From assembly GCF_002723975.1 (NCBI RefSeq), contig NZ_BEWO01000021.1, positions 1 through 38,999 on the forward strand: DNA of 38,999 nt. The letters run 5' to 3'. This DNA comes from Gluconobacter japonicus. Its GTDB lineage: Bacteria > Pseudomonadota > Alphaproteobacteria > Acetobacterales > Acetobacteraceae. Below are positions 15,612 to 20,394 of this stretch, piece after piece (positions within the stretch are counted from its first letter, which is position 1; every line of letters starts with the position of its first letter). The translations under genes and the position numbers were made by a program. Under the pieces are notes generated by a model, which did no database searches, was not told where the DNA came from, and was given only the letters and a program-made list of their open reading frames with translations.

Positions 15612-16574
15612 ATGGCTGGATTTTTCTCACGACTCAAACAGGGTCTTTCGCGCTCGAGTTCACGTCTCGGTGCCGTGTTCACGCATCGCAAGCTGGATGA
15701 TGCTGCTCTTGAAGAACTCGAAGACGAACTGATCGCAGCGGATCTCGGCCCGGTTGTGGCAGAACGCGTCATCGAAAGCTTCCGCAGCTCACGTTTTGGC
15801 AAAGACGTCACGAGCGATGAAATCCGCGATGCGCTGGCGGAAGAGATCGCTCGTGTTCTGGAGCCTGTAGCTGTTCCGTTTGAGCCCGATCCGAAGAAAA
15901 AGCCACACGTCGTCCTCGTCGTTGGCGTCAACGGCGTGGGGAAAACCACAACCATCGGGAAAATGGCGCGCCATTACAGCGACGAAGGCAAATCCGTTAT
16001 GCTGGTGGCGGGAGACACCTTCCGTGCGGCAGCCGTCGAGCAGCTTCAGGTCTGGGGACAGCGTTCCAGCGTGCCCGTCATCGCAGGCAAGCATGGCGCC
16101 GACGCCGCTGGTCTGGCCTATGACGGCATCAAACGTGCAACCGAAGACGGCAAAGACCTTCTCCTGATCGACACGGCTGGCCGCCTCCATAACAAGGGTG
16201 CCCTGATGGAGGAACTGGCCAAGATTATCCGTGTCATGCGGAAGTTTGACGAAACGGCGCCACACTCCGTTTTGCTGGTTCTGGATGCAACGACAGGCCA
16301 GAATGCCATCGAACAGGTTCGCGTGTTCCGGGAACTGGTGAATGTCACCGGACTGATCGTAACGAAGCTGGACGGCTCAGCGCGCGGCGGCATTGTCGTA
16401 GCTCTCGCAGAACAGTTCAAACTGCCCGTCCACATGGTCGGGGTCGGTGAGCAGGTTGAAGATCTGCGCCCCTTCTCGGCGCAGGATTATGCCCGTGGCC
16501 TGGTTGGCGGGGCTGCAGGCGATCTGGCGTCGCGACTTGTCGAGAGTCAGCCGGAGAGTGGCGAACACACCTAA
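15612..16574 (+). CDS. ftsY: Signal recognition particle receptor FtsY
   Basis: SRP receptor GTPase that receives ribosome-nascent chain complexes from Ffh/4.5S RNA at the inner membrane. The 320-residue product is a compact FtsY: a short basic, amphipathic N-terminus (MAGFFSRLKQGLSRSSSRLG) takes the place of the long acidic A domain of E. coli. The N domain starts near residue 28 and the G domain follows. G motifs are GVNGVGKTTT (105-114), DTFRAAAVEQL, DTAGRLHNK and TKLDGSARGG, and the C-terminal GVGEQVEDLRPF is also present. About 150 bases separate it from mtaB, leaving room for its own promoter, although I could not identify a convincing one. No strong Shine-Dalgarno precedes the ATG. Confidence 0.97.
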   Translation: MAGFFSRLKQGLSRSSSRLGAVFTHRKLDDAALEELEDELIAADLGPVVAERVIESFRSSRFGKDVTSDEIRDALAEEIARVLEPVAVPFEPDPKKKPHVVLVVGVNGVGKTTTIGKMARHYSDEGKSVMLVAGDTFRAAAVEQLQVWGQRSSVPVIAGKHGADAAGLAYDGIKRATEDGKDLLLIDTAGRLHNKGALMEELAKIIRVMRKFDETAPHSVLLVLDATTGQNAIEQVRVFRELVNVTGLIVTKLDGSARGGIVVALAEQFKLPVHMVGVGEQVEDLRPFSAQDYARGLVGGAAGDLASRLVESQPESGEHT

Positions 16575-16590: not shown

Positions 16591-17052
16591 TCAGGTTTTG
16601 TCCTTAGCCCCTGTATCAAGCCATTCGTCACGCAGGGCGGCGATCCTTTTTTCGATCGCCCTGCGCTCCCTGCGTGCGAAATCAGCATACCACAGCCTTG
16701 CCCCGATCGCCGAAGCTTCAGCAACCAGCCATGCAACCCCGACGGCCATCCAGTCCAAAATCAAGGTGATCGGCTGGGTAATCTGCTGAACACAGGTTTG
16801 CCAGTCGCCATGGGCCAACCACGCAGTCCTCAGCGGATGAACCATTACAGCCCCCAGATAGAACAGAACAATCATCATGCGCTGACGGTCAGCATCGGGA
16901 TCAACGAAATGCAGCACCACCAGCGGAAGCAGCAAAACACCACCGACCAGAAGACTACCGGGCACATAGGCCAGCAACAGGCCAAGAATCAGACCGTGCC
17001 ACCACTTGAAGGCCATCCTGCCTTCCCGCTCGCGCACTGCCGCCTCTTTCAT
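16591..17052 (-). CDS. Small membrane protein partnered with the pseudokinase
   Basis: I do not recognise this 153-residue protein as a characterised family. It has a hydrophobic hairpin at about residues 17-50, one more hydrophobic segment at about 58-76 and another at about 98-118, so three or four membrane spans. A charged C-terminal tail (ARRERRAIEKRIAALRDEW) is probably helical and cytosolic. Its ATG overlaps the stop of the pseudokinase gene by 4 nt (17049-17052), so the two proteins are translated from one message and may form a membrane complex. It converges on ftsY with only 16 bases between the stops, and no convincing terminator is visible there. Function is unknown. Confidence 0.8.
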   Translation of the reverse strand: MKEAAVREREGRMAFKWWHGLILGLLLAYVPGSLLVGGVLLLPLVVLHFVDPDADRQRMMIVLFYLGAVMVHPLRTAWLAHGDWQTCVQQITQPITLILDWMAVGVAWLVAEASAIGARLWYADFARRERRAIEKRIAALRDEWLDTGAKDKT

Positions 17053-19019
17053 TGACAGAACTCCAGCCAGATACTGGCCATGGACACAACAATCCCGACC
17101 AGCAGAGAAAAGAATTCCCCTGCGTTTCTCGCCTGCTTTTCGTGAACGGCCTTACGGTTGGGCTCATCTTCAAGAATTTGCTCAAGATGGGCGATTTCGA
17201 CCTCAGCCTGCCGTGCCATTTTGCGATCTTTTTGCAGCCCGGCAGGATCGTTGACGTTATCAAGAAATCTCGTAAGGTTTCCCGCCTCAGCCAACTGGGA
17301 CAGTTTGGCCCTTCGCTTTGCACGGGCCGTTCTACTCCGCCATTGTTTAAGCTCTGTTTCGAGCAGTGGAAGCGCACGTCTGGCAATAGAGCTCAGCGCC
17401 TCCTTGTCAAAACGGCGCTGCGCTGCGGCCAGAAGAGTCAGGTCTGCCAGCCATGATGGCAATCCAGCTTTCTGGGACTGAGCCAGAGGGACAATCCCCT
17501 GTCTGGCACAATGGCTCTCCAGAAATGTCCGCATCTGATCGTCCATAAAACCGGAGCGACCGATATCTTCGGCAGAAACTTCTTCTTCTGAAAGATGACC
17601 GTTAAGCCATTGGAGCAGACCCGCTGAAAGAGAAATACGCTCTTTCAAACACCGCGAAGAAAGACACGGCTGATAAACGTTCATATCATAGGGCAGACGC
17701 CGGAGTTGCTCCATGCCTTTCGCACCCGTTCGGCGAGCTGCAACAGCAAGACCTCCAATCTGCGTAGCCTGTAATGCCGGCAGCGTCGGCGCGTCAAAAA
17801 CCTCCGGACTGGTCATCAGAAAGCTGGCAATTCCACGGATATTCCGCTGCTCATCAGGCGGAAACGCTCCTGCCTCCGCATGAGCCAGCATCTGGGGAAT
17901 AGCTTCAGGCCAAAACCAGCGCCCCGCCCAGAACATCGGTGCAGCAGGATCCAGAATGGCGATAGCACGCGTGACGACCATCGTTGTCGGATCAACAGCT
18001 TTGTTTGCTCCTGACGGAAGAAAGGCCACCCCCGCCTGCTCAATCAGGCTGGACATGACAGAGAGTTCAAGCTCGCGGTGGAGCCACTGGCTGATGATTT
18101 TCCGCTGAAGCAGAGACAGAAACTCGTTTTGGTATTTCCCACCATACCACGCCAGAGCACGCGGCGTTCTGACTTCCACCCCGCCAATCATCAAAGGCGT
18201 ACGCGCAGGAATCTCGGCTCGGAGAGAGAAGAGTTTACTAGGCGCAATCGTGATCAGATCGCCGGGGCCAGGCCTGTTTTCCGGTGCGTCGGACAGCATT
18301 GCTTCCAGCAGAGACACCAGACCTGCAGGCACGTTATGACCCTGCATATAAGCCGTTGCAGATCCGAGTTCAAAGCGACGCCTGAGGATTTCTGCATCTG
18401 ATAACCCTTTGAGCGGCAGTTCACCGATACAGAGCGACAGAACCAGAACCCCTAGGGAAAACACATCACAGGCGATGGTTCCCACACCGCGCGCCGTCGG
18501 GTGGCAGGCCGCGGAGCATAAGGGCTCAAACAGGACAGGTTGAAGCGTGGCACCAGCGGCCACACCAAGAGGACCAAGAACAACCTTGTGCAGTCCCTGC
18601 CCGACAAACAGATTTTCCGGACGAATACCACGACAGGTCAATCCCGCCGTATCCAGCTTTTCGAGAGCATCCGCCATAGGGCGGATAACACCGTCGATGA
18701 TCTGACTTTCCGACCACAGACCCAATCCCTCGGCAAGAGAGGGTCCTGGCGGGTGAGCACACAGCACCCAAAGGGCACCGTTATGATATTCATGAGCATG
18801 GAGGCCAATAACGCTCTCATGCCGGAAGAACATCAGCTCTGAAAATCTGGGGGACGGCATGGACGGTGCCAGCGCCAGCCAGGTTGAACCTGTGGCCGTA
18901 ATGTCCTGTGCAACCCAGGTGGGACAGCCCCCGATCATGGATTGCTTCTGCGTCGTATTGACCAGATAGCGGTCTGCGATCAGCAGTTCCGGGCTGTCGT
19001 CTCCCTGAATGTAATCCAT
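17049..19019 (-). CDS. Tail-anchored protein pseudokinase
   Basis: A 656-residue protein whose first roughly 260 residues resemble a Ser/Thr protein kinase but lack the catalytic residues. The catalytic loop reads CRGIRPENL (129-137) where active kinases have HRDLKPEN. The DFG position reads LGPLG (149-153), and no clear VAIK lysine is seen. The structural Asp of subdomain IX (CDVFSLG, 184-190) and the late Arg (ENRP) are kept. The middle region, about 270-540, is not recognised. A basic, coiled-coil-like stretch (about 560-630) leads to a single hydrophobic segment at about 636-653 at the very C-terminus, which predicts tail anchoring with the kinase-like domain in the cytosol. The ATG at 19019 follows GGAACGGAC. 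It lies downstream of purA and overlaps the small membrane protein gene. Confidence 0.85.
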   Translation of the reverse strand: MDYIQGDDSPELLIADRYLVNTTQKQSMIGGCPTWVAQDITATGSTWLALAPSMPSPRFSELMFFRHESVIGLHAHEYHNGALWVLCAHPPGPSLAEGLGLWSESQIIDGVIRPMADALEKLDTAGLTCRGIRPENLFVGQGLHKVVLGPLGVAAGATLQPVLFEPLCSAACHPTARGVGTIACDVFSLGVLVLSLCIGELPLKGLSDAEILRRRFELGSATAYMQGHNVPAGLVSLLEAMLSDAPENRPGPGDLITIAPSKLFSLRAEIPARTPLMIGGVEVRTPRALAWYGGKYQNEFLSLLQRKIISQWLHRELELSVMSSLIEQAGVAFLPSGANKAVDPTTMVVTRAIAILDPAAPMFWAGRWFWPEAIPQMLAHAEAGAFPPDEQRNIRGIASFLMTSPEVFDAPTLPALQATQIGGLAVAARRTGAKGMEQLRRLPYDMNVYQPCLSSRCLKERISLSAGLLQWLNGHLSEEEVSAEDIGRSGFMDDQMRTFLESHCARQGIVPLAQSQKAGLPSWLADLTLLAAAQRRFDKEALSSIARRALPLLETELKQWRSRTARAKRRAKLSQLAEAGNLTRFLDNVNDPAGLQKDRKMARQAEVEIAHLEQILEDEPNRKAVHEKQARNAGEFFSLLVGIVVSMASIWLEFCQ

Positions 19020-19104: not shown

Positions 19105-20394
19105 TCAGTCTTCGAACGGATCGCGCATCAGGATTGTATCGTCACGTTCCGGGCTTGTGGATAGCAGCGTCACCGGTGCTTCGATCAATTCCTCGATCCG
19201 GCGCACATACTTGATAGCCTGGGCCGGAAGCTCTGCCCAAGAACGCGCACCAGCAGTGGTTTCCTGCCAGCCCGGCATCGTCTCATAGATCGGCTTCACG
19301 CGGGCCTGTGCACCGGGTGCAGATGGGAAGGTATCGATCTTCTTACCGTCCAGTTCATAGCCAACGCAGATCGAAATTTCTTCCAGACCGTCGAGCACGT
19401 CCAGCTTCGTGAGCGCAATGCCCGTCACGCCGCCAACGCGGGCGGCACGACGCAGCATGACAGCATCGAACCAGCCACACCGACGCGGACGACCAGTGAC
19501 CGTGCCGAATTCATGACCACGCTCACCGATCGTGCGACCAACATCATCGAACAGTTCGCTCGGGAACGGACCTTCGCCCACGCGGGTTGTGTATGCCTTG
19601 GCAATACCCAGAACGAACCCGATGGAAGACGGGCTGACACCACTGCCCGAGGCTGCAACAGCCGCAACCGTGTTGGAGCTGGTCACGAACGGATAGGTGC
19701 CGTGATCGACGTCCAGCATGACGGCCTGTGCGCCTTCAAACAGGATACGACGACCAGCACGACGGGCTTCGTCCAGACGATCCCAGACCGGGCAGGCAAA
19801 GGACATCAGACGCGGCGTGATTTCCGTCAGGAAGTCCTTGAGTTCTTCCTTCGTGAAGGTCTCAGCACCCAGACCCGCCAGCAGCGTGTTGTGGTGCAGC
19901 AGAACTTCGTCCAGCTTCCAGTCCAGCGTCTCCGGCTCAGCCAGATCACAGACGCGAATGGCGCGACGGGCAACCTTGTCTTCATAAGCCGGGCCAATGC
20001 CGCGACCCGTGGTGCCAATCTTCCGATCACCACGAGCAGCTTCACGCGCGCGATCCAGCGCACCATGTACCGGCAGGATCAGCGGAGTATTCTCGGCAAT
20101 CCACAGCGTTTCCGGCGTGACCTTCAGGCCCTGTGCCGTCACGCGGTCAATCTCGGACATCAGGGCCTTCGGGTCGATAACGACGCCGTTGCCGATAACG
20201 CCGATCTGACCGCGCACGAGACCCGATGGCAACAGCGACAGCTTGTAGACCTGATCGCCGACAACCAGCGTATGACCAGCGTTGTGACCACCCTGGAAAC
20301 GGACAACGATATCAGCGCGACTGGCAAGCCAGTCTACAATCTTGCCTTTACCCTCGTCCCCCCACTGGGTTCCGATCACGGTGACGTTGGACAT
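19105..20394 (-). CDS. purA: Adenylosuccinate synthetase
   Basis: Makes adenylosuccinate from IMP, aspartate and GTP, the first committed step to AMP. The 429-residue protein is full length and shows [11 protein letters not shown] at residues 8-18 (catalytic Asp13), GGHNAGHT with His41, [13 protein letters not shown] (IMP binding), [11 protein letters not shown], and [10 protein letters not shown]. The ATG at 20394 follows GAGGAA by 9 nt. It is the third gene of serC-hisZ-purA, 55 bases after the hisZ stop. The order links AMP synthesis with histidine synthesis, whose pathway releases AICAR back into purine formation. The pseudokinase gene follows on the same strand behind a weak hairpin. Confidence 0.98.

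Follow-up and report, generated by a model that had tools for sequence, protein, structure and literature searches.

The K-P locus

The window examined here, a 38,999-nt stretch of the Gluconobacter japonicus contig NZ_BEWO01000021.1 (positions 1 to 38,999 of the forward strand), contains two adjoining genes that we refer to as K and P. K encodes a tail-anchored protein with a degenerate kinase domain, and P encodes a small membrane protein whose start overlaps the stop of K (Table 1). An earlier note made from the sequence alone had singled out this pair as a candidate for an undescribed system in which a dead kinase acts at the membrane together with its partner.

Table 1. Features of the K-P locus and its immediate neighbours in the window
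Feature	Positions	Strand	Basis or remark
K, 656-residue tail-anchored pseudokinase	17049-19019	minus	open frame, fold, selection
Kinase-like domain of K, residues 8-263	18231-18998	minus	
Degenerate catalytic loop CRGIRPEN, residues 129-136	18612-18635	minus	Gly131 replaces HRD Asp; loop Asn136 kept
PLG, residues 150-152, at DFG site	18564-18572	minus	profile alignment
Asp185 of CDVFSLG, subdomain IX	18465-18467	minus	Asp in 87/87 family members
Helical region of K, residues ~270-590	17250-18212	minus	
Long C-terminal helix of K, residues 592-655, running into the membrane anchor	17055-17246	minus	model
C-terminal membrane span of K, residues 636-654	17058-17114	minus	
P, 153-residue membrane protein, about four spans	16591-17052	minus	open frame, hydropathy, model
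ATGA overlap of K stop and P start	17049-17052	minus	
purA, upstream neighbour	19105-20394	minus	conserved context
ftsY, convergent downstream neighbour	15612-16574	plus	

From its N terminus to its C terminus, K consists of the kinase fold, helical region, long helix and membrane anchor listed in Table 1. The two-lobed protein kinase fold that had been claimed for it is borne out by the predicted model, by structural matches and by profile alignment with solved kinases; the top structural match is WNK3, with other kinases tying within 1 Z unit. No confident Pfam or NCBIfam match was found for the helical region, nor any confident second Pfam domain in K. The single C-terminal span is likewise predicted as expected, and a hydrophobic terminal span above threshold is present in 31 of 33 K matches, followed by 1-11 residues.

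The description of P as a membrane protein of three to four spans with an overlapping ATGA start also held up. P is predicted to have about four spans, a cytosolic N terminus and a helical C-terminal tail with a conserved Trp144, and the mean charges of its family (N terminus +4.1, loop 52-58 +1.1, loop 80-95 -0.8, tail +2.2) fit an arrangement with both termini inside. Its structure model has a pLDDT of 91.5, and no known fold was recognised from it. Searches against Pfam, NCBIfam, PADLOC and PHROGs returned only four Pfam matches for P, at E 0.1-0.8 and all from distant members of its family, and no family model specific to K or to P was found. Compared with four relatives, P has a dN of 0.056-0.155 and a dS of 0.70-1.40, indicating purifying selection.

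Loss of the catalytic residues across the K family

A pseudokinase is defined in PMC12599244 as a kinase sequence that lacks one or more of three catalytic residues. Judged by its sequence, K falls within this definition, as it has none of the VAIK Lys, HRD Asp and DFG Asp that would mark an active Ser/Thr kinase. For the family as a whole, the K sequences of loci L001-L049 and L098-L177 (129 in all) were aligned and reduced to 87 at 90% identity, and the three residues occur together in none of the 87. Lys is missing from the VAIK position in every sequence, in agreement with the earlier report of no clear VAIK lysine. At the HRD position, where the window has the Gly of CRGIRPENL, Asp remains in only three sequences (two Skermanella loci and one Arenibaculum locus), the others having mainly Ala (46), Ser (18) or Gly (14); positions 129-131 are mostly His or Cys, Arg or Gly, and Ala, Ser or Gly, and the loop most often reads HRAIRPxN. 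The loop residue Asn136 is kept in 86/87. The reported absence of DFG is correct for the window, which has PLG, and does not extend to the family in the same form: residue 150 is Glu in 46 sequences, Asp in 27, Pro in 12 and Gln in 2, so an acidic residue survives at this position in 73 of the 87. A placement of the DFG Asp at residue 149 (Gly in 84) was considered and dropped, as the profile alignment and a model strand at 146-148 put the site at 150.

Residues that support the fold have been kept. Asp185, the subdomain IX residue that the earlier note had recognised, and Arg249 are both present in 87/87, and Glu165 in 82/87; we take Glu165 and Arg249 to be the usual pair of the APE Glu and Arg. 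Arg133 (81/87) and Gln160 (85/87) are also conserved, as are several polar residues of the helical region (Tyr444, Cys452, Ser454 and Asp493), while position 495 is His in 75/87 and Gln in 11/87, including the window. By alignment, the family has lost its catalytic set and retained its structural residues. This is accompanied by purifying selection on K (dN/dS 0.040-0.052 against its four closest relatives, with dS above 2 in two of the four comparisons), and the dN of the kinase part is about equal to or slightly higher than that of the rest of the protein, from 0.043 vs 0.041 up to 0.119 vs 0.110.

Three relatives with HRD and DFG intact were found outside the class. In a phylum-wide draw of 398 genomes, 19 had a K match at E 1e-20, 16 of them within Alphaproteobacteria and three outside (E 4e-25 to 2e-28). 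The three outside relatives (L178-L180) are by motif canonical Ser/Thr kinases of other Proteobacteria, with HRDIKPGN and DFG intact, and their alignment with K extends beyond the kinase domain into the helical region (first HMM domain of 354-436 profile positions). They differ from K in these motifs and in having no P match within the 4.0 to 9.5 kb read around their loci. Because the relatives combine intact motifs with an alignable helical region, K looks like a former kinase in which catalysis was lost while the accessory region stayed. In two of these relatives (L178 and L179), weak extra HMM domains suggest two or three copies of the helical module in the C-terminal part.

Linkage of K and P

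One set of 289 alphaproteobacterial genomes was searched first with a profile of K and independently with a profile of P. Any match was found in 114 genomes for K (E 0.001) and in 111 for P (E 0.01); of these rows, we kept those at 1e-30 or better for K and at 1e-8 or better for P. The strongest discarded row reached 1.5e-09 for K, over the kinase region alone, and 5.2e-05 for P. This leaves K in 99/289 genomes (114 rows, some of them fragments) and P in 101/289 (116 rows), and P is present in all 99 genomes that carry K. A P gene on the same strand directly follows K in 102 of the 114 rows, and the 12 non-adjacent rows consist of three fragments (G311, G157 and G132), one K at a contig start (G147), four second copies of K and four K genes with P on another contig. 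Adjacency holds by construction in 24 of the 99 genomes because the P profile was built from the neighbours of K there; the other 75 contributed no row to it. Within the genus of the window, 25 of 26 genomes have both genes, adjoining in 25/25, and in other genera of Acetobacteraceae P adjoins K in 6/6 K-bearing genomes. The pairing that the earlier note expected among relatives is therefore found in the genus, in the family and in most of the class.

The two genes are also closely spaced. The offset between the K stop and the P start is -4 in five and +9 in 15 of 20 loci of the genus, and in a wider set of 40 pairs (L058-L097, with starts chosen mechanically) the distance is at most 60 nt in 38, with overlap in 15. 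Across 48 loci with a single K, P and purA, the pairwise distances correlate at 0.85 for K and P, 0.63 for K and purA and 0.59 for P and purA; after removing the purA component, the K-P correlation is 0.75, a value reached in 0/2000 permutations. This co-variation may be inflated by saturation, since the mean distances of K and P are large (0.69 and 0.72). Taken together, these comparisons support well the view that K and P form a genetic unit.

Several variants of the locus were seen in passing. The pair is duplicated in tandem (K-P-K-P) at L094 (G168) and L060 (G312). At three loci (L133, L134 and L139), K has no P nearby and is followed by a gene that by eye resembles an acyl-CoA synthetase.

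Proposed role and alternatives

Scaffolds built on membrane pseudokinases are already known. In type VII secretion, EssB/YukC is a transmembrane protein with a cytosolic pseudokinase domain that is degraded in all three motifs, and it is described as a scaffold that recruits other proteins (PMC12599244). As far as that description goes, K is alike in being a transmembrane pseudokinase and differs in the long helical region that separates its kinase domain from the C-terminal tail anchor, in its occurrence in Alphaproteobacteria rather than Firmicutes, and in its neighbours (purA, hisZ, rpoH and ftsY), which form no secretion cluster, type VII genes not having been searched genome-wide. Our preferred reading, to which we give a probability of roughly 0.5, is that K and P would form a docking complex of the inner membrane, inherited as a unit and acting in the manner of EssB/YukC. 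K would be fixed in the inner membrane through its C-terminal span, and its kinase-shaped domain and helical region would lie in the cytosol as a docking platform rather than a phosphotransferase. The membrane hairpins of P may hold or position the K anchor, with the cytosolic tail of P placed beside the long membrane-proximal helix of K, and a cytosolic or membrane client would bind the platform. In the dedicated complex of a dead-kinase scaffold or sensor that the earlier note proposed, the genetic unit is thus well supported, and it is the contact between the proteins, the docking or sensing role and the client that we infer. More tentatively, the pair could be an undescribed, ancient two-protein machine of the alphaproteobacterial membrane that arose from an active kinase and has a general function for the envelope or membrane proteins, such as positioning or quality control of a membrane complex, for which known systems give no explanation.

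A number of observations weigh against the preferred reading. The acidic residue at the DFG position and the loop Asn136, both retained in most of the family, could mean that K binds a metal or a nucleotide. Four genomes (G170, G271, G131 and G163) have a second, full-length K copy without an adjoining P in addition to a K-P pair, and in four others (G066, G186, G206 and G254) K and the only strong P are on different contigs. Two genomes (G049 and G182) hold three extra P copies each with no K neighbour. P was found near none of 13 further K loci, two of which end just after K and one of which, in Magnetospirillum fulvum, has the usual purA upstream. Finally, one of the 26 genomes of the genus (G004) is missing both genes, its weak K match being another kinase, which means that some settings allow the pair to be dispensed with.

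The main alternative, which we regard as doubtful, is that K is a sensor whose pocket binds a metal, nucleotide or small ligand, with the helical region changing in response and the signal passing through P. What puts this explanation ahead of the other alternatives is that most members still have the loop Asn and an acidic residue at the DFG position, and the conservation of Arg133 and Gln160 agrees with it; but the VAIK Lys is absent from every sequence, and with Pro at the DFG position in the window and in 12/87, a metal site would not be general. It is improbable that K has instead acquired a different catalysis, as SelO (AMPylation) and SidJ (glutamylation) have done on the kinase fold (PMC12599244). 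Conserved polar residues (Gln160, Arg133, Asn136, Tyr444, Cys452, Ser454 and Asp493) could serve such an activity, but it would have to do without the VAIK Lys, and near Cys452 the sequence offers no fixed His, position 495 being the variable one described above.

It is very unlikely that the pair serves in a toxin-antitoxin or anti-phage defence system, where P would be a membrane toxin that K controls or for which K is the sensor: K matches 12 PADLOC models (E <=0.01; best PD-T4-6, E 8.6e-13), all over the kinase-like region and one reaching residue 329, as well as the MAD6 kinase of the MADS system, but the latter match (NCBIfam NF047741) is at 33 bits, far under the 460-bit cutoff, P has no PADLOC or PHROG match at E 0.01, and both the often conserved housekeeping context and the purifying selection speak against defence. 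We consider it just as remote that K is an allosteric partner of an active Ser/Thr kinase, a common mechanism among eukaryotic pseudokinases, as a PF00069 search (E 0.001 or better) of 15 K-bearing congeners returned K alone in 14, where a partner of the Pkinase family is consequently not detectable; the search covered PF00069 only, and not other kinase superfamilies. A partner kinase for K is therefore unlikely, and the data speak against K as a regulator of another Pkinase-family kinase. The exception is the genome of the window itself (G000), which has one further PF00069 match (C28, 389 aa, L202 1240-2409). C28 is atypical, with LTDLRLRN and EFG, and is possibly another degenerate kinase.

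Other described pseudokinases were compared with K through parts of their descriptions in PMC12599244. The MviN pseudokinase domain (ActPs3) is similarly carried on a membrane protein, but it is described as mainly actinobacterial and has an activation loop deletion. GLW pseudokinases share with K a transmembrane region after the kinase domain and differ by having GLW at the HRD site, where K mostly has HRAIRPxN and CRGIRPEN in the window. CP1 pseudokinases have no transmembrane region and are linked to a COG3899 domain, whereas K has a C-terminal span. As far as these partial descriptions allow, K fits none of the families of that paper, and it may have a place in the full classification. K also differs from MviN in lacking its multi-span part. 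In the openly licensed PMC literature we found no paper on the K-P family or the pair; while membrane pseudokinase scaffolds are known, the K family, its partner P and their distribution are not described in the literature searched.

Genomic context

On the purA side of the window, purA and serC exceed their NCBIfam cutoffs and a HisZ-like protein reaches 200 bits (cutoff 272); on the other side, ftsY, a MiaB/RimO-family gene and dapF exceed theirs. Neighbours were counted for 130 K hits in 129 fetched loci, a set that includes the canonical L178 and L179, holds some genomes twice and has many short loci. Of these hits, 65 have purA directly upstream, 111 have P downstream and 56 have, beyond P, a convergent gene of the rpoH type; both purA and rpoH are present in 41. 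Recurrent neighbours of the pair are purA, hisZ, serC, rpoH, an RluA-family gene and ftsY, the last taking the place of rpoH in the window and in the two congeners read (L085 and L086), with rpoH there in many distant relatives. On large Azospirillum replicons, K and P occur together in 5/5 records, and in the one replicon region read, the pair has different neighbours and lies away from purA.

The pair is cleanly absent from G004 and G291, where the gap between purA and ftsY is 70 and 76 nt. A further 36 genomes, in which K gave no row at E 1e-20, were examined; in four of them (G004, G039, G077 and G101) the K search gave only weaker hits, on other kinases. All 36 have rpoH-type genes, and 33 have purA. 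These two genes are convergent with 37-227 nt between them in five genomes (G043, G053, G060, G062 and G064) and 0.9-2.1 kb apart in eight (G038, G098, G193, G224, G318, G361, G390 and G656); in the rest they lie farther apart or on other contigs, or purA was not found. Neither K (best E 1.2) nor P (best E 0.13) was matched in fourteen purA regions taken from K-less genomes. The idea that the neighbours purA and rpoH tie the pair to purine synthesis or heat shock was considered but not retained. In two K-less genomes, the site after purA holds another protein (L194 1749-2939, beginning MADYYPLL, and L196 1762-3825, beginning MADYRSIL). Contigs titled Asaia bogorensis (MAG; L165) and Anaerolineae (MAG; L129) show the usual purA-K-P context, and both labels may be wrong.

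Distribution and implications

A scan of named genomes with a profile from eight K sequences confirmed 187 stretches, of which the best 80 were retained, and the resulting list leans toward the Azospirillum-like half of the family. By record title, the named relatives are nearly all alphaproteobacterial, and P comes directly after K in records of Azospirillum, Skermanella, Niveispirillum and Caenispirillum, among others. The single annotated record that was read labels K as "serine/threonine protein kinase" and P as "hypothetical protein". Research on bacterial phosphorylation may therefore pursue, under this annotation, a kinase that probably cannot phosphorylate. This matters for many organisms, as about one third of the alphaproteobacterial genomes drawn hold the K-P pair. 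Congeners in which K is the only detectable Pkinase-family protein offer a clean setting to study a pseudokinase without an active partner of the same family, and the intact motifs of the three relatives from outside the class open the transition from kinase to pseudokinase to direct study.
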